Source of the DNA: a virus
Strand: one strand, 5' to 3'
Length of the DNA stretch: 27,102 nt
IMG/VR virus record: IMGVR_UViG_3300032288_001376
Coordinates: 1-27,102 of that record
The notes below the pieces were generated by a model that did no database searches, was not told the origin of the DNA, and worked only from the letters and a program-made list of their open reading frames with translations. The translations under genes and the position numbers were made by a program. Shown one piece after another: positions 3,386 to 22,871 of this stretch; within the stretch, counting starts at the first letter, position 1; every line of letters begins with the position of its first letter.

Positions 3386-3613
3386 ATGAAAATCAAGGCC
3401 AACACCACCCTTAAGACTCGTTCAATCGGAGACTATAATTGTATTTACTCTGCATTTGTTCATTCACGGACCGAAAAATCTTGCGTAGTTACTATCATGG
3501 GCAACACTAAGCGCACTAAGATATTCACCGACCGTGACGGTGTTGAATACTTGATGCCTGAGAAATTCTCAATGGCTCCAGTTTACAGGGCCGATGATAA
3601 ACTGAACTTCTAA
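3386..3613 (+). CDS. Small unknown protein, first gene of rightward early block
   Basis: A 75-residue basic protein beginning MKIKANTTLK with two or three beta strands (CVVTIMGNT, TKIFTDRDG) and ending DKLNF. The frame is open to a TTG at 3329, but the ATG at 3386 is preceded by an A/C-rich leader (CCCAAACAAA) like that before the gene at 8322, and no extra conserved sequence lies upstream. It opens the rightward early region after the divergent gap. No family is recognised; the Cys pair (C16, C31) is not an obvious zinc site. Confidence 0.65.
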   Translation: MKIKANTTLKTRSIGDYNCIYSAFVHSRTEKSCVVTIMGNTKRTKIFTDRDGVEYLMPEKFSMAPVYRADDKLNF

Positions 3614-12676: not shown

Positions 12677-13485
12677 AATCGGTCCATTCCTTATCTGGCG
12701 GCAAGACATCATCTTATATGGCAATTCATTATCCGGCTGATTATAATGTATTTGCACTTGTAACGATAGATGATAAGAACTGCTCACCAAATGATAAAGG
12801 ATTAATTAAAAAGGTAAGTGATAAAATAGGAAAGGAATTTATTGCAACTGCTGAGGATGATTCCACATTAATTGCAATGTTGGATTTAGAGCAATTGTTA
12901 GGAAGGGAAATAATTTGGTTAACAGGTCTTTCCTTTGATATTGTTGTAAAAACAAAAGGCGGATGGCTTCCGTCAAAATTAAGAAGATACTGTACTACTG
13001 AAATGAAAATCAGACCTATATGGGATTGGTGGTATAAAACAATCGGAGAAAAGATAAAGATGGGTATTGGTTATAGATTTGATGAAATTGAAAGGGCTGA
13101 AAGATTCAGTACATCTTTTAAAGGCGTAACAGGAAAAAGAGGAACGAGAAATAAATGGGAAGAGATAGAATGGAGAGAAGGATGGTTCCCTCTTATAGAT
13201 GATAAAATAGGACATTATACTGTTTATCAATGGGCGCAAAAATCAGGAATTAAGTTCCCAAAAGATTCAAATTGTGTAGGATGTTTTCATAAACCAAATC
13301 AACAATTGAGAAAAAATTGGGATGATAATCCTAATAAAATTCAATGGTTTGCAAACCAAGAAAAAATTGGTAAAGGAACGTGGAAAGAGGAAATATCATA
13401 TGAACAAATTAAGAAAATAGGACTGCAACAAGATTTCTTTTTTGGAACAGGATCAGGATGTCAGGCTGGATTTTGTACGGATTAA
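12673..13485 (+). CDS. PAPS-reductase-like PP-loop ATPase with Cys motifs
   Basis: A 270-residue adenine nucleotide alpha-hydrolase family protein. The PP-loop SGGKTSS is at 8-14. The RRYCTTEMKIRP segment (104-115) and two later cysteine pairs, CVGC (201-204) and C263/C268 near the end, recall PAPS reductase and DndC-type sulfur-transfer enzymes, where cysteines hold an iron-sulfur cluster. It could reduce activated sulfate or activate a base or sugar for sulfur chemistry; which one cannot be decided. GC is about 28-33% in counted lines, lower than the flanking glycosyltransferase. It starts by ATGA overlap. Confidence 0.82.
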   Translation: MKSVHSLSGGKTSSYMAIHYPADYNVFALVTIDDKNCSPNDKGLIKKVSDKIGKEFIATAEDDSTLIAMLDLEQLLGREIIWLTGLSFDIVVKTKGGWLPSKLRRYCTTEMKIRPIWDWWYKTIGEKIKMGIGYRFDEIERAERFSTSFKGVTGKRGTRNKWEEIEWREGWFPLIDDKIGHYTVYQWAQKSGIKFPKDSNCVGCFHKPNQQLRKNWDDNPNKIQWFANQEKIGKGTWKEEISYEQIKKIGLQQDFFFGTGSGCQAGFCTD

Positions 13486-13486
13486 T

Positions 13487-13972
13487 ATGCACGATCATTA
13501 CGAAAATACTTTAGAAAAAGCAGAAAGAATTAAAAATATGCGAATAATCTTAGGAGCCGGACAATTCCAAAGAGAGCCTAATTACGAACATCAAGACCAA
13601 TGGGCTTTTCCAGGAATAGACCATGTATTTAATCTCAACGAAAAGTGGCCACTTGAAGACAATTCCTATATCTCAATAATCGCCTGCCATGTGGTGGAAC
13701 ATTTAAAAGACTTCCTCCACTTTCATAATGAAGCCCACAGGATCCTTAAACCCGGTGGAACGCTTTACTTAGAAACCCCCAGCGCACACGCAAGCCCAGA
13801 CCTTATCTGGTCGGATCCGACACACGTAAGACCTTATACTCCTCATTCGTGGATTAATTACTTAACCATCGAAGGGATTAATAAATTCGGATACACGGAT
13901 AAATGCTGGGGATCTTTGCATATCGAAACCAGACAAGGGAATCTTATCGTTCACGCAATGCCAATCAAATGA
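13487..13972 (+). CDS. SAM-dependent methyltransferase (class I)
   Basis: A 161-residue short class I methyltransferase. IILGAGQ (about 19-25) takes the place of the SAM-binding motif I. The segment SIIACHVVEHLKDFLHF then leads into EAHRILKPGGTLYLETPS, highly typical of Methyltransf_11 enzymes. The late WSDPTHVRPYTPHSW stretch is seen in sugar or lipid-sugar methyltransferases. The start could be ATG 13487 (one base after the previous stop) or 13538 (MRIILGAG). The context between glycosyltransferases suggests O-methylation of a glycan. Confidence 0.78.
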   Translation: MHDHYENTLEKAERIKNMRIILGAGQFQREPNYEHQDQWAFPGIDHVFNLNEKWPLEDNSYISIIACHVVEHLKDFLHFHNEAHRILKPGGTLYLETPSAHASPDLIWSDPTHVRPYTPHSWINYLTIEGINKFGYTDKCWGSLHIETRQGNLIVHAMPIK

Positions 13973-14052
13973 CTTATATAATAATTTTCACACTACTTGC
14001 AGTAGTTGTCTTTTTGAGAATCTATAACGAGTACAGAGATTATAATTCGTGA
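13969..14052 (+). CDS. 27-residue single-helix membrane microprotein
   Basis: It is coupled by ATGA to the methyltransferase stop, and its own stop overlaps the GTG of the next gene. One hydrophobic helix (IIIFTLLAVVVFL) is followed by a polar tail (RIYNEYRDYNS). It fills exactly the gap between two genes and mirrors the 25-residue ORF at 4729. Function unknown; it might anchor cassette enzymes at the membrane. Confidence 0.45.
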   Translation: MTYIIIFTLLAVVVFLRIYNEYRDYNS

Positions 14053-14639
14053 TCACAATCGTAGCCGTTCAATACTTAGAGCCTGACTATAATCAGACCT
14101 TGGACTGTCTGAAGAGACTTTCTTTGCCGGTTATTTTCGTTGACAGAAAAGGAATAGGTTCTTTAGCGGAAGCCTATAACAGAGGTTTCAAAAAGGTCCA
14201 AACTGAATACACCTGGTTTATTTCTAACATCACATTTAAACCAGACGTACCTATTAAGTTACTTTCAAGCATTCATAATTACGGAGGAGTAAGCCCTAAG
14301 TTCGCTTCTCATCATAAGTTTATAAGAATCGGGAAAGGAGTGCAGGAATCCAAGTTCGTAGAATTCACCGCTCCGCTTATAAGGTCGGAAGTTTATAAAG
14401 AAATCCAATTAGACGAGAATCTGCCTTATTGGGGACATGATATCGTTTTTGGGATAGAGTGCGAAAAGCGAGGAATCAAATTAGCAATAGACCACACGGC
14501 AGAGATAGAACATACTTATATCTGGGACTCCAAACCAAACCCAATAACTGAGAAAAGAAAGAAACTCAGATTAGCACAAGACAAGCCAACGGAGGAATAT
14601 TTAAACTTAAATTATCCGAATTGGAAACAATACTTATAG
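14049..14639 (+). CDS. GT2/GT-A-like glycosyltransferase
   Basis: A 196-residue protein starting at a GTG. The opening MITIVAVQYLEPDYNQTLD and the segment GSLAEAYNRGFKKVQTEYTW match the nucleotide-binding start of GT2 enzymes. FISNITFKPD replaces the usual D-x-D, so catalysis may be altered or the metal site atypical. YWGHDIVFGIECEKRGIKL near 144-162 corresponds to the acceptor-side ED motif region. It is shorter than many GT2 proteins but complete in core. It lies between the microprotein and the KdsC-like phosphatase in the cassette. Confidence 0.72.
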   Translation: MITIVAVQYLEPDYNQTLDCLKRLSLPVIFVDRKGIGSLAEAYNRGFKKVQTEYTWFISNITFKPDVPIKLLSSIHNYGGVSPKFASHHKFIRIGKGVQESKFVEFTAPLIRSEVYKEIQLDENLPYWGHDIVFGIECEKRGIKLAIDHTAEIEHTYIWDSKPNPITEKRKKLRLAQDKPTEEYLNLNYPNWKQYL

Positions 14640-15022
14640 ACTTTGACGGAGTTTTAACAGACGGCAAGAAATATATCGGTTCGATAGGGTCTTTTTATTC
14701 TGTACACACAAGAGACAACGTGGCCATCGCTGAACTGATAAGCATGGGTTACGAAGTGATAATCGTGACCGCTAACGGGGATCCGGTGATAGAAGAATAT
14801 GCAAGAAAAAGAAAGTGTAAACACATCTGGTCAAGAGAAAAGAATATAGAAGCGGAAATCGCAATAGGGGATTCAACCTTTGACATTCCTATGCTAACGA
14901 AAGCCAAGAAGAAGTTCTGCCCTAAAGATGCCCATCCGGATGTAAAGAAAATACCAGGCATAATAGTTTTAAACGTAAACGGAGGAGAGGGAGTGATTGA
15001 GAATCTTTTATTTTACTTATGA
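14621..15022 (+). CDS. KdsC-like HAD phosphatase
   Basis: A 133-residue HAD phosphatase without a cap domain. Motif I DFDGVLTDGK carries the nucleophile and acid-base Asp (D7, D9). VTANGD is motif II and IGDSTFDIPML is motif IV. The C-terminal NGGEGVIENL resembles the GGxGAVRE end of KdsC, which removes phosphate from KDO-8-phosphate. It likely dephosphorylates a sugar phosphate made for the cassette. The start is TTG at 14621, 19 bases inside the upstream gene; no in-frame ATG precedes motif I, so the rare start is well supported. Confidence 0.82.
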   Translation: METILIDFDGVLTDGKKYIGSIGSFYSVHTRDNVAIAELISMGYEVIIVTANGDPVIEEYARKRKCKHIWSREKNIEAEIAIGDSTFDIPMLTKAKKKFCPKDAHPDVKKIPGIIVLNVNGGEGVIENLLFYL

Positions 15023-15639
15023 TACAGGCAATAGCGCACGAATTAAAGTTCTGGAAGGAGTTTGTAAAAACCGCAAGATTTCTGAACGGATGGGTAGCGA
15101 ATATCAAAACGCCTGAACTCCATCAGCCGGTCTATGATATGTTAAAGAAAAAAGACCTCAAAGTATTAGACCTTGGAAGCGGAGTAGTTTCTATCCTTAA
15201 TGGAACCGTTAAAGATTTAACACCATGCGATCCTTTGGGTGAACTTTACGAATGTATTTTCGATTACAAGAAACACAAACTGCCACCACCTCTACCGATA
15301 GCAGCAGAGGATTTAGAATTTAAAGAAGAGTTCGATGTGGTGCATATCTCTAACGCTTTAGATCACTCCCAGAATCCAAGGAAGGCTTTTGAAAAAATGC
15401 TCCAAGCATCAAAGGAATATGTAATCGTTCAGGGATTTGAAAACGAAGCCATCTTTGAGAACTGGCAAGGCTTCCACCAATGGAACATGACCTTAGACGA
15501 ACATTTAAAGATATCCGGAAAGAACGGCATTAATTTAAACTCAAAAGAATTCAACCTTGAAATCATATTAAAACAAGTCATACCTTTGGACAACAAAAAC
15601 TGGATAATCTTTATCGCAAAGAAGAATGCCAATACCTAA
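15019..15639 (+). CDS. Class I SAM methyltransferase
   Basis: A 206-residue methyltransferase coupled by ATGA to the phosphatase. Motif I is KVLDLGSGVVS near 48-58; the acidic strand-2 end is CDPLGE near 70-75. FDVVHISNALDHSQNPRKAF near 109-128 is the post-I/motif II region of Methyltransf_11-like enzymes. The N-terminal helix WKEFVKTARFLNGWV may bind acceptor. It closes the modification cassette and overlaps the next gene by 14 bases. The substrate is unknown; the neighbours suggest a glycan. Confidence 0.78.
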   Translation: MIQAIAHELKFWKEFVKTARFLNGWVANIKTPELHQPVYDMLKKKDLKVLDLGSGVVSILNGTVKDLTPCDPLGELYECIFDYKKHKLPPPLPIAAEDLEFKEEFDVVHISNALDHSQNPRKAFEKMLQASKEYVIVQGFENEAIFENWQGFHQWNMTLDEHLKISGKNGINLNSKEFNLEIILKQVIPLDNKNWIIFIAKKNANT

Positions 15640-16114
15640 GCCAAGCCCTGGGGAATCAGAACAAGAATTTGTTTCACGTTGTATAAGTGAAATATCAAAC
15701 GAGTACGACCAGCAACAAGCGGCCGCTATTTGTTATAATACTTTCAGAACCGAAGCAATCAAAGCACAGGTAAAAGAATTCCTCCAGCCCAAAAACGAAT
15801 CTTACTCTGACTACCCAGACGGAGTAAAGAACAACGCTAAACGGGTTTTAGACTGGACAGAAAAGAACGGATGGGGATCATGCGGAACTCCAGTAGGGAA
15901 GCAACGAGCAAACCAATTAGCCAAAGGAGAACCCATCTCAGTTGAAACAATTAAAAGAATGTACTCGTATCTCTCAAGGCACGAAGTAGACCTGGAAACC
16001 TCAACATCCTACGGGGACGGATGCGGGAAACTCATGTACGACTCATGGGGAGGAAAAGCCGCTTTAGGATGGTCAAGAAACAAACTAAGAGAATTAGGAC
16101 TATTAAATGAATGA
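15626..16114 (+). CDS. Phage DUF protein of prohead-protease-associated type
   Basis: A 162-residue protein in two parts. The first (about 1-40) has EQEFVSRCISEI and QQQAAAICYNTF, a Cys-containing pattern recurrent at the ends of phage prohead proteases and portal-region proteins. The second (about 58-160) has DYPDGVKNNAKRVLDWTEKN, VGKQRANQLAKGEPIS, ETIKRMYSYLSRHEV and WGGKAALGWSRNKL, also seen fused to head-maturation proteases. Here both are stand-alone, just before the terminase genes. A head-assembly or packaging role is inferred. Confidence 0.65.
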   Translation: MPIPKPSPGESEQEFVSRCISEISNEYDQQQAAAICYNTFRTEAIKAQVKEFLQPKNESYSDYPDGVKNNAKRVLDWTEKNGWGSCGTPVGKQRANQLAKGEPISVETIKRMYSYLSRHEVDLETSTSYGDGCGKLMYDSWGGKAALGWSRNKLRELGLLNE

Positions 16115-16457
16115 CATGGCAAGACCTCTAATCTTCAAGACTCCAGAAGAACTGGACAAAGCCATTGATAAATACATCAAGCAAGAAGAGAAGCCAACCC
16201 TCGCAGGATTAGCCTATCACCTTGGTATTGACCGACATACGCTCTATAATTACAAAGAAAGAGAGGAGTTTTTCCACATAATTAAAAAAGCGACAGACTA
16301 CATCGAAAGCCAATACGAACAAAGGCTCATCTACGGAAACAATCCGACCGGTCTCATCTTCGCATTAAAGAATATGGGATGGACCGATAAACAGAAAATC
16401 GAACAACAAACAGAACACTCTGGTGGCATCAGTATTAACTGGTCGGATCCAGTATAA
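16107..16457 (+). CDS. terS: Terminase small subunit
   Basis: A 116-residue DNA-recognition subunit of the packaging motor. The HTH is visible in PTLAGLAYHLGIDRHTLYNY (about 30-49). It is followed by the helical oligomerisation part and the characteristic FALKNMGWTDKQKIE end. The ATG at 16107 overlaps the previous stop; ATG 16116 gives MARPLIFKTPEEL, the usual family N-terminus, and is an equally good start. It overlaps the large subunit by 35 bases, a common terS-terL arrangement. Confidence 0.85.
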   Translation: MNDMARPLIFKTPEELDKAIDKYIKQEEKPTLAGLAYHLGIDRHTLYNYKEREEFFHIIKKATDYIESQYEQRLIYGNNPTGLIFALKNMGWTDKQKIEQQTEHSGGISINWSDPV

Positions 16458-17595
16458 CATAGCAAAGACCAAGGTCGCTCTACAATCTTTCAAGGCTTAC
16501 AAGTCAGGAAAGAGGTTTATCGTCAATCAAGGAGGGTCAAGATCGGGGAAGACTTATTCATTAGTTCAACTATTAGTCGGGTTAGCGTTAAAGGAAAAGG
16601 TCAGCATCTCAGTCTGTTCGATTGCTTATCCTCATCTAAGGAAAGGCGTAATAAGGGACTGGATTGAGATTATGGAGAACTCAGGGATGTATGACCCTAA
16701 TTCCCACTCACTAACAGAAAGCCTTTACAGGTATCCAAATGGGTCTTATATCGAATTCTTCTCAGTAGATAACTCGTTAAAAGTACGGGGACCAGGCAGG
16801 GATATTCTTTTCGTAAACGAGGCTAACCTAATCCAAAAGGAAACCTTTGAGCAGTTAAACATGAGAACCAAAAAAGCGGTTTTCATTGACTACAACCCAG
16901 CAGATGAGAACCATTGGATATACGACCGGCTCCTACCGTTACCGGATACAGAATTTATCCAAACGACCTTTTTAGACAATCCATTTCTTCCTGAAATCCA
17001 AAAGAAGCAAATCGAAAGCCTGAAGGATGCTGATCCGAATCTTTGGAAAGTTTACGGACTCGGAGAGAGGGGGACCACACAGAACACCATATACCACAAA
17101 TTCGACCTCTACGATGACGTACAAGGCGACTTCTGCTACGGGCTGGACTTTGGCTTCAACCATCCTAATGCGCTCGTAAAAGTCACCAGAATCGAAAATA
17201 ACCTATACGCAGAGCAGAAACTTTATCAGTCGCACTTAACCACAAGCGACCTTATTAAACAAGTGAAAGAAATAGTAGGTAATTCGCTCGTTTACTGCGA
17301 CACGGCACGACCTGAGATTATCCAGGAACTAATCCTAAACGGAGTCAATGCATACCCAGCAGACAAGAGCGTAAAAGAAGGAATAGACTTCATCAGAAGC
17401 CATAAACTCTTTATCCACAGGGAATCCACAGACCTTCAGAAGGAACTTAGATCGTACAAGTGGAAGCAGAAACCTACTGGGGAGATATTAGACGAGCCGG
17501 TAAAGATGTTCGATGATCTCTGTGACTCCTTCAGGTACGGGGCTATTTCATTTAAAAATAACTACACATCACCAATCTTAATGGGTTTCAGATGA
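16423..17595 (+). CDS. terL: Terminase large subunit
   Basis: A 390-residue ATPase-nuclease that drives DNA into the prohead. The Walker A is GGSRSGKT (37-44) and the Walker B region is ILFVNEAN with catalytic Glu 133. The coupling segment FIDYNPADENHW follows. The RNase H-like nuclease has YGLDFGFNHP (D242), VYCDTARPE (D293) and FDDLCDSFRYG (D364-D368 region). Length is slightly short but all motifs are present, fitting Terminase_3-type enzymes. The start is GTG at 16423, within terS. Confidence 0.95.
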   Translation: MASVLTGRIQYNIAKTKVALQSFKAYKSGKRFIVNQGGSRSGKTYSLVQLLVGLALKEKVSISVCSIAYPHLRKGVIRDWIEIMENSGMYDPNSHSLTESLYRYPNGSYIEFFSVDNSLKVRGPGRDILFVNEANLIQKETFEQLNMRTKKAVFIDYNPADENHWIYDRLLPLPDTEFIQTTFLDNPFLPEIQKKQIESLKDADPNLWKVYGLGERGTTQNTIYHKFDLYDDVQGDFCYGLDFGFNHPNALVKVTRIENNLYAEQKLYQSHLTTSDLIKQVKEIVGNSLVYCDTARPEIIQELILNGVNAYPADKSVKEGIDFIRSHKLFIHRESTDLQKELRSYKWKQKPTGEILDEPVKMFDDLCDSFRYGAISFKNNYTSPILMGFR

Positions 17596-18236
17596 AGATA
17601 ACAATCGAACTAAACGGGGTAAAAGTCGAGAAAGACATCCCCACAATGTGGAAGGAAGTCACCTTTGGTCAGTTTCTTAAACTCTCCGAATGCGAGGATG
17701 ATATTTCTAAAATACTGTCATTGCTTACCGGAATAGAAGTAGAGACATTAAACAAAGCCAAGATTCAAAACTTAGAGAAGATAATTACTTTACTTTCATT
17801 CCTTAAAACAGAGATGACCTTAGAAGTCCCTAAGACTTGCATGGGATATGAGATACCTAAGAACCTGGAGTTTGAAACCATAGGACAATTTGAGGATTTA
17901 AAGTTAGAAGCACTCCAGATGAAGGATGTTAAATCATTTGAGAAGTACGCCTTATTCTGTGCGATATATGCCGTTAAAGAATATGATTATAAGAAAGCAG
18001 AGGAATTAGCACCTGTCTTTTTAAATGCGCCATGCGAGGAGGTCATGGCCATCGGAAATTTTACATTACTGAAATTAACAGAATTGACGAGCGGCATAGA
18101 AGTCAACTGGCCCCCTCGAAATACTCTAACGAGGAAGTTATGGCTGGCTTTCAACGCCTATCGGAGAAATTTGGCTTTTATAGTACGTTACTTTATCTGG
18201 AAAAAGAAACTCCGTTTACGAGAAAGGAGTTACTAA
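17592..18236 (+). CDS. Tail assembly chaperone, short (G-like) product
   Basis: A 214-residue protein, coupled by ATGA to terL. Residues about 1-155 (MWKEVTFGQFLKL, DDISKILSLLTGIEVE, a helical core, EVMAIGNFTLLKLTELTSG) resemble tail assembly chaperones of Bacteroidota siphophages. In this class the short product is made by normal reading and a longer G-T product by frameshift. The last 37 residues (from RNTLTRKLW, rich in Arg and aromatics) do not resemble the rest and lie over a well-formed ORF in the -1 frame. These proteins coat the tape measure during tail assembly and are absent from the virion. Chaperone assignment is inferred from layout plus pattern. Confidence 0.7.
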   Translation: MKITIELNGVKVEKDIPTMWKEVTFGQFLKLSECEDDISKILSLLTGIEVETLNKAKIQNLEKIITLLSFLKTEMTLEVPKTCMGYEIPKNLEFETIGQFEDLKLEALQMKDVKSFEKYALFCAIYAVKEYDYKKAEELAPVFLNAPCEEVMAIGNFTLLKLTELTSGIEVNWPPRNTLTRKLWLAFNAYRRNLAFIVRYFIWKKKLRLRERSY

Positions 18237-18343
18237 AATGGTCTGTGTCGGAGTTTAACTTTAACCTCATATATTTGTCTCACTATAACCACACGATAAA
18301 GAAATACCAGGAGATCCTGAACAATAAGCATGGCAACCTATAA
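18032..18343 (+). CDS. Tail chaperone T-like extension reached by -1 frameshift
   Basis: An ORF in the -1 frame relative to the chaperone gene, open from 18032 to a TAA at 18341-18343. From PSKYSNEEVMAGFQRLSEKF onward (about 18113) the sequence is protein-like: amphipathic helices, FGFYSTLLYLEK, FTRKELLKWSVSEFNF, HYNHTIKKYQEIL. It matches the AG..kl..fG...tl..La style of T-domain extensions. Fusion to the upstream frame would give 250 residues. Independent initiation at 18032 is unlikely, as its first residues (MRGGHGHRKF) are atypical. It overlaps the next gene by 14 bases. Confidence 0.7.
   Translation: MRGGHGHRKFYITEINRIDERHRSQLAPSKYSNEEVMAGFQRLSEKFGFYSTLLYLEKETPFTRKELLKWSVSEFNFNLIYLSHYNHTIKKYQEILNNKHGNL
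18056..18117 (+). other. Candidate frameshift signals in the chaperone overlap
   Basis: Two -1 slip sites fit the overlap. A AAT TTT at 18056-18062 is a canonical X XXY YYZ heptamer in the zero frame, with a Shine-Dalgarno-like GAGGAGGT at 18036-18043 some 12 bases upstream, as known for bacterial dnaX. The second, CCC CCT at 18111-18116 followed by CGA, keeps the more chaperone-like TLLKLTELTSG stretch in the zero frame, then continues PPSKYSNEE. Protein pattern favours the second; heptamer form favours the first. Confidence 0.5.
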
Positions 18344-19162: not shown

Positions 19163-19637
19163 CAACATATTAAATAAATACGGACAGGTCGGTGTTCAAC
19201 TATTAAAGAACGCTATATCAGGTCTTAAAGCGACCGGGAAGACTGAGCAGAGTTTAAGATATGAAGTCATCCAAGAACCAGGGGTTAGCACGTTAACAAT
19301 CTACGGACGGGAGTTTTTCAAAGCGTTAGAAACAGGACGGGGGCCGGCAGAAAGGAGCGGACCTCCTGGATTCCCTGAGAGACTTGAAGAGTATATGCAA
19401 GCGAGGGGGTTTCCTTCTAAGACATCAAAGAAAGGCGTAAAGTATTGGAGGATCGGGGATAACTGGTATTCAGGGAAGAGCCTTGCGTATAAAATCAACA
19501 CCCAAGGGGACAGAACGTATAGAACCGGAGGACGGCAAGTTTATAGCGATGACCTTAGTAAGTTTGTGGAGGAGTTGAAGCAAGTGGTAAAGGATACCGC
19601 TTTATTTGGCTTCAGGAAAATAAAGACGAATGAGTAA
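19149..19637 (+). CDS. HK97 gp10-like head-tail joining protein
   Basis: A 162-residue protein with an N-terminal helix, a strand pair (TLTIYGREFFKALETGRGPA), GPPGFPERLEEYMQARGF and a basic loop. A SLAYKINTQGDRTYRTGG segment and a C-terminal helix follow. The ExGR...p....i..w...rG organisation is that of HK97 gp10 and virion morphogenesis proteins, which help complete tails or the head-tail joint. Its location next to the terminator-like gene supports this. It overlaps the fibre gene by 8 bases. Confidence 0.7.
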   Translation: MVAIDNILNKYGQVGVQLLKNAISGLKATGKTEQSLRYEVIQEPGVSTLTIYGREFFKALETGRGPAERSGPPGFPERLEEYMQARGFPSKTSKKGVKYWRIGDNWYSGKSLAYKINTQGDRTYRTGGRQVYSDDLSKFVEELKQVVKDTALFGFRKIKTNE

Positions 19638-22587
19638 GATCACGAAGATAGGGTTACCTTCAGGTGGGACTACGGGTCAGGTCTTAAAGAAAAAGACCGG
19701 GACAAATTATGACGTAGAATGGGGAACAGGAGGCGGAGGAAGTGGTACTGTGACATCGGTGGCTACGACTGCACCTATTACAGGCGGGACTATTACGACT
19801 ACCGGAACGATAGGAATCACCCAGGCTACGACTTCCACGGATGGGTATCTTTCTTCGACTGATTGGAATACGTTTAATAATAAACAAAGTGCTTTAACCA
19901 ATCCCGTCACAGGAACAGGAACTACCAACTACCTTCCTAAGTTCACAGGGGCGAGTACGATAGGAGATTCTCAGGTAAGAGATAATGGAACAGGTGTAGC
20001 CATAGGAGGTGCGCCAAGTGCGTTTAAGTTTGATGTTACAGGCTTAGTCAACTTCACCGGAACAACTGCAAGTGACGGTGGACAGTTAGGGGCAGAACTT
20101 CTATCAGCGGCAGGATGGACGAGTACAGGATGGACAGGATCATTTGGAGCAGGATGGACACATACGGTAGGTAATACTACTGCTCTTACTAATACGTTAG
20201 CGGCGGTTAACGGTACTTACTATCAGATAGCCTACACAGTCACCGGAAGGACTGCTGGTACGTTTGTAATTGCTTTCGGAGGCTATACATCTGGTTCACT
20301 TAGTGCAACAGGAAACGTAGGACCACGTGCAACAAGTACAGGTACTCTTTCTATTACGCCTACTACGGATTTTGATGGGACGATTGTAATCTCTATCAAG
20401 GTAATTACGGCCGGTAGTGCTAATCTTACGATAAAAAATAGTTCAGGTACGGTAATTAATGAGATAAACGGATCATCATCGAATACAAATACTTTCATTG
20501 GGTTAGATGCTGGAATTAGAAATACTACTGGAGCAAATAATACATTTATTGGAAATAATGCTGGTCAAAATAATACTACCGGTGTAACTAATGTTTTTAT
20601 AGGAACATCAGCAGGAGGATCAAATACTATTGGATTTGGAAATTCCGCTTATGGAGTTAGTTCTTTACAATCTAACACAACTGGTTATTGGAATAGTTCA
20701 TACGGATACAATTCATTGTTGTCATCAACAACAGGATATTCAAATTCAGCATTCGGTGAAGGTAGTTTATTATCAAGCACCACTTCTGCTAACAATAGTG
20801 CATTTGGAAGATCTACTTTACGTTCATTAACTTCTGGTAGCAATAATGCAGTTTTTGGGGCCGCTTCTTTTTATTATTTATCAAGTGGAGATTCCAATAT
20901 TGCTATTGGCCAAGATGCAGGAACATATTTTGGAATTTCTTCAAGTACAACTACAACTTCAAATAATTCAATATTTATAGGTCGTGACTCAAGACCAAGC
21001 GCAGATTCAGAAACCAATCAATTAGTAATCGGTTACCAAGGTCGTGGCCTTGGCTCCAACACCACAGTAATAGGCAACTCTTCTACTACATACGGTAGAT
21101 GGTGGGGGAACTTGTTAGTAGGTTCTAATACAAACAGTGGAGAAGCATTACAGATAACAGGATTAGCATCGTTTACAGGTACCACTGCTTCAGACGGTGG
21201 ACAATTAGGTGCTGAATTACTGTCTACATCAGGTTGGACATCTACTGGCTGGACCGGTTCATTTGCTACTGGTTGGACACATACTACCGGAAACACCACT
21301 GCGTTAACCAATACACTTGCTGCGGTTAATGGTAACTACTATCAGATAACCTATACGGTCACCGGAAGGACTGCTGGATCATTTACTATCGCATTTGGTG
21401 GTTATTCAATTGCTGGAATTACGGCAACTGGTAATACAGGCCCACAGGCAATCTCTACTGGAACATTATCTATCACGCCTACTACGGATTTTGATGGCAC
21501 GATTGTAATCTCTATTAAGGTAATCACGGCTGGTAGTGCTAATCTTACGATAAAGAATAGTGCAGGTACCGTAATAAATGAGATAAATGGCTCATCATCG
21601 AATACCAATATTTTTGTTGGATTAGATGCTGGAAGTAGAAATACTACTGGACTTAACAATACATTTTTAGGGTCATCAAGTGGATTAAATAATACAAACG
21701 GAACTGATAATAGTTTTTTTGGATATATTTCTGGTCAATCAAATACGGTAGGATCTAATAATACATTTTTAGGCTCATTTGCAGGATGGTCTAATACTAT
21801 AGGAGGATTTAACACATTTGTCGGATCATCAGGTCGTGCTAATACTACTGGGAATTTTAATTGTTATTTTGGCGCAAGAGCAGGAATTTCAAGCACAACA
21901 ACATCAGGCAATTGTTTTTTTGGATATGAAGCAGGTAGGCAAACGACTGGATCAACTAATAGTTTTTATGGTTATCAAAGTGGAACTCTAACCACATCTG
22001 GATCAAATAACGTAGGATTTGGTCTTTTTTCTGGCCTAAATAACACAACAGGATCAAATAATAGTTTTTTTGGTAGTGAATCAGGTAGACGGATTTCATC
22101 TGGATCAAATCTTACCGTAGCAAACAATTCTATCTTCTTAGGCTACGACACTCGTGCAAACGCTGACTCCGAAACCAACCAATTAGTAATAGGCTACGCA
22201 GCAATCGGCCTCGGTTCTAACACAACAGTAATAGGCAATTCATCTACTACATACGGTAGATGGTGGGGGAACTTATTAGTAGGTACGAGTACTAATTCAG
22301 GCTATGCTTTGGATGTTAGTGGAACTGCGAGGATTCAGAACGACTTAACAATCTCAGATACAAGGAATATAATCCTAAGCACAACCACCGGAACCAAGAT
22401 AGGCACGGCTACCACGCAGAAACTTTCTTTTTGGAATGCCGCCCCAGTATCTCAACCTACGACTGCAGTAACATCAGCAACACGTGTAGGAGGCGGAGGA
22501 ACTACTTTAACAGATACGGATACATTTGACGGATATACTTTAGCGCAGATAGTAAAAGCCTTGAGAAATACAGGAATTTTAGCATAA
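19630..22587 (+). CDS. Large tail fibre with YadA-like roll repeats
   Basis: A 985-residue Gly/Ser/Thr/Asn-rich fibre. The N-terminus (KITKIGLPSGGTTGQVLKKK) and TDGYLSSTDWNTFNNKQ are typical fibre-start motifs. Two long blocks follow. Each has a beta domain (FTGTTASDGGQLGAELLS onward) and then many short repeats of the NTTG.NNTFIG..AG type, as in trimeric adhesin rolls. Each block ends in ETNQLVIGY and YGRWWGNLLVG. The C-terminus (SGTARIQND, KIGTATTQKLSFW, FDGYTLAQIVKALRN) is a common fibre end; no intramolecular chaperone is seen. It probably trimerises and binds the host surface. Confidence 0.85.
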   Translation: MSKITKIGLPSGGTTGQVLKKKTGTNYDVEWGTGGGGSGTVTSVATTAPITGGTITTTGTIGITQATTSTDGYLSSTDWNTFNNKQSALTNPVTGTGTTNYLPKFTGASTIGDSQVRDNGTGVAIGGAPSAFKFDVTGLVNFTGTTASDGGQLGAELLSAAGWTSTGWTGSFGAGWTHTVGNTTALTNTLAAVNGTYYQIAYTVTGRTAGTFVIAFGGYTSGSLSATGNVGPRATSTGTLSITPTTDFDGTIVISIKVITAGSANLTIKNSSGTVINEINGSSSNTNTFIGLDAGIRNTTGANNTFIGNNAGQNNTTGVTNVFIGTSAGGSNTIGFGNSAYGVSSLQSNTTGYWNSSYGYNSLLSSTTGYSNSAFGEGSLLSSTTSANNSAFGRSTLRSLTSGSNNAVFGAASFYYLSSGDSNIAIGQDAGTYFGISSSTTTTSNNSIFIGRDSRPSADSETNQLVIGYQGRGLGSNTTVIGNSSTTYGRWWGNLLVGSNTNSGEALQITGLASFTGTTASDGGQLGAELLSTSGWTSTGWTGSFATGWTHTTGNTTALTNTLAAVNGNYYQITYTVTGRTAGSFTIAFGGYSIAGITATGNTGPQAISTGTLSITPTTDFDGTIVISIKVITAGSANLTIKNSAGTVINEINGSSSNTNIFVGLDAGSRNTTGLNNTFLGSSSGLNNTNGTDNSFFGYISGQSNTVGSNNTFLGSFAGWSNTIGGFNTFVGSSGRANTTGNFNCYFGARAGISSTTTSGNCFFGYEAGRQTTGSTNSFYGYQSGTLTTSGSNNVGFGLFSGLNNTTGSNNSFFGSESGRRISSGSNLTVANNSIFLGYDTRANADSETNQLVIGYAAIGLGSNTTVIGNSSTTYGRWWGNLLVGTSTNSGYALDVSGTARIQNDLTISDTRNIILSTTTGTKIGTATTQKLSFWNAAPVSQPTTAVTSATRVGGGGTTLTDTDTFDGYTLAQIVKALRNTGILA
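20041..20520 (+). repeat. Fibre internal duplication, copy 1
   Basis: About 480 bases (fibre residues 138-297), matching 21160-21639 at a constant offset of 1119 bases, checked at two points. The proteins are nearly identical while many third codon positions differ. Confidence 0.8.
21160..21639 (+). repeat. Fibre internal duplication, copy 2
   Basis: Second copy of the 20041-20520 module (fibre residues 511-670), same frame and no net length change. A second matching pair follows the roll repeats: 21010 onward and 22171 onward (ETNQLVIGY to NLLVG), offset 1161, so the intervening repeat tract differs by 14 residues. Confidence 0.8.
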
Positions 22588-22871
22588 TGAAAACAATACA
22601 ACCAATTCAAATCTGGAAAAATGGAGGTCTCAAGGAGGCTTCTATTCTTAACTCTTACGTGGTCTCTGATAACATTAAAGACTCAGCGACCTTTTACTAC
22701 GCACTTCTAAACGAGAACAAAGAGAACCTCGCAGAAGGAAATCTTAATATGGGCGGAGATGCTTACCAAGGCTGGGAGCAGAACGAATATGCTTGGGACT
22801 GGATTGCCGGTCAATTGGGACTTGTAATTACCGGAGATTATGTAGAACCAACAGAAAATAAAGATATTTGA
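22587..22871 (+). CDS. Small fibre-associated protein
   Basis: A 94-residue acidic protein: MKTIQPIQIWKNGGLKEASI, then YYALLNENKENLAEGNLNMGG, YQGWEQNEYAWDWIAGQLGL and an acidic end. Proteins of this pattern often follow fibre genes in phages of this type. An accessory virion or fibre assembly role is inferred. The start overlaps the fibre stop (TAATGA) by one base. Confidence 0.65.
   Translation: MKTIQPIQIWKNGGLKEASILNSYVVSDNIKDSATFYYALLNENKENLAEGNLNMGGDAYQGWEQNEYAWDWIAGQLGLVITGDYVEPTENKDI

Follow-up and report, generated by a model that had tools for sequence, protein, structure and literature searches.

Two reading frames that overlap just downstream of the terminase genes of a viral contig raise the question of whether ribosomes pass from one frame into the other, at which of two proposed sites they would do so, and what could stimulate them in a group of phages whose gene starts make little use of Shine-Dalgarno (SD) sequences. 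The window analysed here is the whole of a 27,102-nucleotide stretch (IMG/VR record IMGVR_UViG_3300032288_001376, positions 1 to 27,102). Its initial annotation described a tail assembly chaperone gene, here G, followed by a -1 extension, here T, and left a canonical heptamer and a run of C residues as rival slip sites. Our analysis makes it highly probable that G/T is a -1 frameshift unit of a siphovirus-like Bacteroidota phage, in which the slip occurs at the heptamer with stimulation by an internal SD, and that G and the fusion GT are probably tail chaperones.

Architecture of the G/T unit

The overlap of about 205 bases that had been proposed between the chaperone gene and the -1 ORF is real and is kept as a gene pair in 24 homologous loci: the -1 frame is open from 17993 to 18343, and from its first ATG at 18032 it overlaps G by 205 nt (Table 1). 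The heptamer was correctly placed, in position and in frame, and its phase is that required for a -1 slip. The SD-like sequence reported some 12 bases upstream was likewise found, GAGGAGGT at 18036-18043 ending 12 nt before the heptamer. A slip at the heptamer gives a fusion in which EEVMAIGNF is followed by YITEINRIDERH, and recomputation returned the claimed 250 aa whether the slip is set at the heptamer or at the C-run. An AlphaFold2 model of residues 1-162 of G reaches a pLDDT of 92.5, and the large terminase adjoins G directly upstream. Current annotations of this large phage-metagenome G/GT family miss its long form.

Table 1. Features of the G/T region, in window coordinates.
Feature	Position	Strand	Remarks
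Small terminase-like gene (GP3_package)	16107..16457	+	Pfam PF16677, E 2e-21
Large terminase	16423..17595	+	Pfam Terminase_3, E 2e-18; nearest genome relatives three Bacteroidota
Gene G, 0-frame product, putative tail assembly chaperone	17592..18236	+	214-aa ORF; homologues in 24 contigs
First ATG in the -1 frame, rejected as a start	18032..18034	+	equivalent ATG in L005 followed directly by TGA; absent in others
Internal SD core GGAGGT	18038..18043	+	extended form GAGGAGGT, 18036-18043; 24/24 loci; strong predicted anti-SD pairing
SD-to-slip spacer, 12 nt	18044..18055	+	same length in all loci
Predicted slip heptamer A_AAT_TTT (X_XXY_YYZ)	18056..18062	+	23/24 loci; GAGTTTT in L147
Predicted T extension, -1 frame	18062..18343	+	93 aa plus stop; 250-aa GT fusion, junction AIGNF/YITEINR; conserved from codon 1
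Putative dual coding, 0-frame tail of G (57 codons) over T	18063..18236	+	frame 0 open beyond synonymous randomisation
G CCC CCT run, proposed rival slip site, rejected	18110..18116	+	run not conserved

Homologous loci and conservation of the motif

Relatives were gathered from IMG/VR by protein-only scans with G and then the -1 ORF as query, by a DNA-pattern search returning 14 contigs, all with the SD-heptamer pair and thus a set conditioned on the motif, and by motif-free profile scans with the T part (14 contigs), with G up to the slip (16 contigs) and with the N-terminal half of G (19 loci), this last profile having been built from eight closer members. The profile scans do not require the motif, yet the profiles themselves contain motif-selected members. 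A looser DNA pattern added L120, L121, L124 and L129; the pattern matches L122 and L131, near-identical to each other, were discarded as chance matches lacking a G/T pair. All heptamer-class members are metagenomic contigs: no cultured relative was found by tblastn with G, T and tail proteins, and no relative of G was found in bacterial genomes.

All 24 homologous pairs have GGAGGT and 23 have the heptamer, the spacing between the two being constant. The kin recovered by the G and -1-ORF protein scans, at 99, 67, 71 and 44% identity, all carry both elements; among ten non-redundant relatives from protein-only scans, GGAGGT-N12 is found in 10/10 and AAATTTT in 9/10. Both elements are likewise present in all 14 contigs recovered with the profile of the distant T part, and in all six loci that were new in the T-part and G-to-slip scans (L024, L028, L029, L047, L048 and L050). 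In the window the combination GGAGGT-N8..20-AAATTTT occurs once, against 0.02 expected from shuffles of the window. The one departure from the heptamer, in L147 (about 3400-3440), has GGAGGT-N12 and an intact -1 ORF with G_AGT_TTT in its place; here a single tRNA-Phe could possibly slip on U_UUU.

The alignment of 24 sequences also separates nucleotide from protein constraint. Over 155 pre-slip codon columns, a third base fixed to 95% or more is confined to one Trp codon, SD codons -8 and -7, and heptamer codons -2, -1 and 0. Codon -8 encodes nine different residues in these sequences yet always ends in G, and the Glu codon within the SD is always GAG. For nine relatives, with lineages treated as independent and with the codon usage of each contig, the probability of such conservation is about 10^-8.8 at the SD positions and 10^-8.5 at the heptamer. 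These alignments support selection acting on GGAGGT as nucleotides.

Position of the slip site

A programmed -1 frameshift, as the initial annotation had it, is supported by the 24 homologous loci with both the ORF pair and the signal, and an alignment of homologous pairs, the check it had proposed, shows that conservation changes frame at the heptamer, the first codon past it already being conserved in the -1 frame. Codon variability peaks at the 0-frame wobble 5' of the heptamer and at the -1 wobble right after it, where the -1 codons Y1, E4, R7 and I8 are nearly fixed; over the 16 codons between the heptamer and the C-run the -1 wobble is already the most variable position, by a small margin over the -1 first position. 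The heptamer as the site of slippage is thus comparatively well supported by the pattern of codon variability.

The C-run, in which CCC CCT CGA begins at 18111, was proposed as a true rival. It would yield a fusion of identical length, and some frame 0 codons past the heptamer are conserved; the frame 0 peptide TLLKLTELTSG that had been adduced in its favour is, however, explained by dual coding, frame 0 being translated as G too. Only the window, L004 and L006 have the run; it is absent from L005, L007 and most other relatives, and in L011, L018 and L024 the -1 peptide APSKY is encoded by codons that break it. Since -1 constraint begins 16 codons earlier, P-site re-pairing would be poor and most relatives dispense with the run while keeping the -1 peptide, the chance that ribosomes slip there is negligible. 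Hardly more credible is that T is a separate protein with an internal start for which GGAGGT serves as the signal. GGAGGT is a strong SD, and the window offers a -1-frame ATG, but this ATG sits 5' of GGAGGT, its counterpart in L005 reads ATG-TGA, and in L005, L006, L011, L018, L048 and others the first in-frame ATG, GTG or TTG lies 78-135 nt beyond the slip. Comparison across relatives found no conserved start codon for T, which speaks strongly against a separate start; the homologues do not show two ORFs each with a conserved start of its own, the pattern that had been named as contradicting a frameshift.

Slippage at the heptamer does not abolish selection on the frame left behind. Under synonymous randomisation that respects the T protein and codon usage, frame 0 would usually close within a few codons, whereas it runs on past the slip for 57, with its stop at codon 57 in 14/19. 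The open frame 0 tail of G looks selected, and its persistence would mean that both G and GT are maintained and that 57 codons are read in two frames.

The internal Shine-Dalgarno motif and its possible action

The predicted pairing of the GGAGGT region with the anti-SD core ranges from -10.5 to -14.4 kcal/mol in 19 loci; in the window it is -11.3 kcal/mol, within the strongest 0.2% of window segments. Downstream of the slip no conserved RNA structure was found, with 0 pairs predicted by RNAalifold and mean z from -0.6 to +0.1, and the internal SD is for this reason the only conserved candidate for a stimulator. At gene starts such pairing is rare: in 19 contigs of the group 3.4% of starts reach -6 kcal/mol or stronger, with a background mostly of 4-13% by contig, while the same method gives 42% SD starts against a background of 11% in lambda.

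The host is likely to belong to the Bacteroidota. The large terminase is nearest to those of phages of Bacteroides, Phocaeicola and Parabacteroides, besides one unassigned gut virus; its relatives in bacterial genomes are only Paraflavitalea, a Bacteroidetes MAG and Chishuiella; and the gene order (ERF, YqaJ, terminase, G, tail-completion-like gene) is like that of Nonlabens phage P12024S. The initial annotation's placing of an internal SD-like motif in an SD-sparing group is thus supported by the gene starts and by the terminase kinship. In Bacteroidia, bS21, bS18 and bS6 sequester the 16S tail, and SDs go unrecognised at initiation (PMC9976891; sequestration also in PMC8710568). A phage-encoded bS21 was sought as an explanation of SD use, and no Pfam match was found among 20 small or medium window ORFs.

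Under the mechanism that we propose, most ribosomes would terminate at the G stop codon at 18236, giving 214 aa, while a minority, with Asn-tRNA and Phe-tRNA on AAU UUU, would move back one base to AAA UUU and continue to 18343 as the 250-aa GT. The upstream GGAGGU would pair with the 16S anti-Shine-Dalgarno during elongation and stimulate the slip in the fashion of dnaX, with no conserved downstream hairpin. Both the action of GGAGGU through 16S pairing and GT as the minority product are to be read as features of this model.

It could be asked whether, with the slip still at the heptamer, GGAGGT acts in some other way than by anti-SD pairing, as the site of a phage or host factor or through a pause of other cause. 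This gains some weight from the SD-poor gene starts found here and from the fact that Bacteroidia are known to sequester their anti-SD (PMC9976891), and since the anti-SD is hidden in Bacteroidia and frameshifting at prfB of F. johnsoniae is reported to be inefficient despite a perfect SD (PMC12421855), GGAGGT may do little. We consider a non-pairing role unlikely, however: the conserved hexamer exactly complements the anti-SD, the 12-nt spacing fits stimulation of the dnaX type, and the prfB frameshift persists in 72% of 726 Bacteroidia genomes, F. johnsoniae having a perfect SD there (PMC8710568).

Escherichia coli dnaX shares with G/T an X_XXY_YYZ heptamer and an internal SD 10-12 nt upstream (PMC11162774, where the dnaX SD is located 10 nt upstream of its heptamer). 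It differs in having a downstream hairpin, whereas none is conserved here, where the gene is a phage gene and the host lineage hides its anti-SD; the G/T unit is dnaX-like in part and is not filed as dnaX-type. The prfB (RF2) gene of Bacteroidia, which belong to this same SD-averse lineage, has a perfect AGGAGGU SD where it is recoded (PMC8710568), but there the shift is +1, at a stop codon and with very short spacing, in contrast to the -1 shift and 12-nt spacing of G/T. The kind of frameshift is already known; what is unusual is that an SD has been conserved at a -1 slip within a lineage whose anti-SD is sequestered.

Probable assignment as tail chaperones

The name tail assembly chaperone stands on the architecture, a -1 overlapping pair, and from this G and GT would probably be the counterparts of lambda gpG/gpGT; no sequence family or solved structure backs it. 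G/T has no match in Pfam, PHROGs or PDB by sequence, G has neither a sequence nor a fold match in the PDB, and a fold search with the T part gave no match at E below 0.001. Known tail chaperone families are themselves highly diverse. In lambda-type pairs many G are made per GT, with G binding the tape measure and T the tail tube. As in lambda, a single mRNA would give a short 0-frame and a long -1 form, T lacks an independent start, and the genes lie near tail genes. The proteins are nonetheless unrelated by any search performed here, the heptamer differs (GGGAAAG in lambda), and the unit here departs from that of lambda in the 57-codon dual-coded tail, the upstream SD and a G directly after the large terminase.

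No tape measure gene was found in the window; P12024S has a weak tape-measure match (phrog_58, E 2e-4) some 7 kb downstream of G. That distance, the placement of G directly after the large terminase and the failure of Pfam, PHROGs and PDB to name the family could suit a frameshift pair encoding some other morphogenesis protein, which we regard as improbable in that a -1 overlap yielding a long form is what typifies tail chaperones and the pair has packaging genes on one side and tail genes on the other, one neighbour being tail-completion-like. Elsewhere in this neighbourhood, 19630-22871 of the window holds a 985-aa protein with weak tail-spike or structural matches and a 94-aa ORF amid conserved tail genes, both missing from most relatives, while 13442-15639, just 5' of the terminase genes, holds a HAD-hydrolase-like ORF between two weakly methyltransferase-like ORFs.

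A second slip class in the wider family

Fold matches of G in BFVD are unnamed phage proteins, one of them from P12024S (I6R9M9, 175 aa, the size of gp38), and the G profiles of the heptamer class and the P12024S class align (hhalign 91.6%, E 8e-7, 138 columns). The unit of this Nonlabens phage (PHROG 32199) resembles that of the window in having a homologous G after the terminase and a -1 extension, and differs in slipping at T9 without an SD. P12024S and its relatives have a run of T at the slip position, followed by the -1 extension; the run is T9 in all those read except L068 (T10), and 0/57 scored T9-class homologues have an SD within 30 nt upstream of it. The slip region of the window reads AAATTTTAC, without T9. 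At T9 it could be either the ribosome, on U_UUU_UUU, or RNA polymerase that slips. T9 units were observed in P12024S (L055:23136-23900) and in L057-L118; for P12024S, GenBank annotates G (gp38) and not the long form.

It appears from these alignments that one gene pair has been furnished with two slip modules, a heptamer plus SD and T9 alone. The N-terminal scan also returned four very divergent G/GT units (L148-L151) with AAT and then T9 and no GGAGGT. L148, L149, L150 and L151 are possible intermediates between both slip types. The T profiles of the two classes compare weakly (20.8%), being bridged by eye alone through L148. The tree splits the two main slip groups (100/100), with L148 and L150 on very long branches, and because of these branches independent switches of slip type cannot be counted reliably; the contrast between T9 without SD and heptamer with SD, which may reflect very few evolutionary switches, is suggestive and is not a counted correlation.

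Significance for frameshifting in probable Bacteroidota phages

Phages that start their genes without SDs retain, over deep divergence, one perfect SD within a coding region, 12 nt before a heptamer. This is natural evidence that SD pairing, or some other reader of those six bases, plays a part in elongation in this lineage. A more speculative and rather doubtful extension is that the internal SD ties the G:GT ratio to host ribosome state, such that Bacteroidota ribosomes poor in bS21 or remodelled by the phage, their anti-SD being free, would frameshift more; if this were true, tail assembly would be tied to late infection. The relatives with T9 and no SD allow two means of driving the one frameshift to be compared as they occur in nature. 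G/T stands beside prfB, where the use of the SD is debated, as a compact and testable second case, and offers a direct test of whether Bacteroidota-type ribosomes read SD motifs while elongating.
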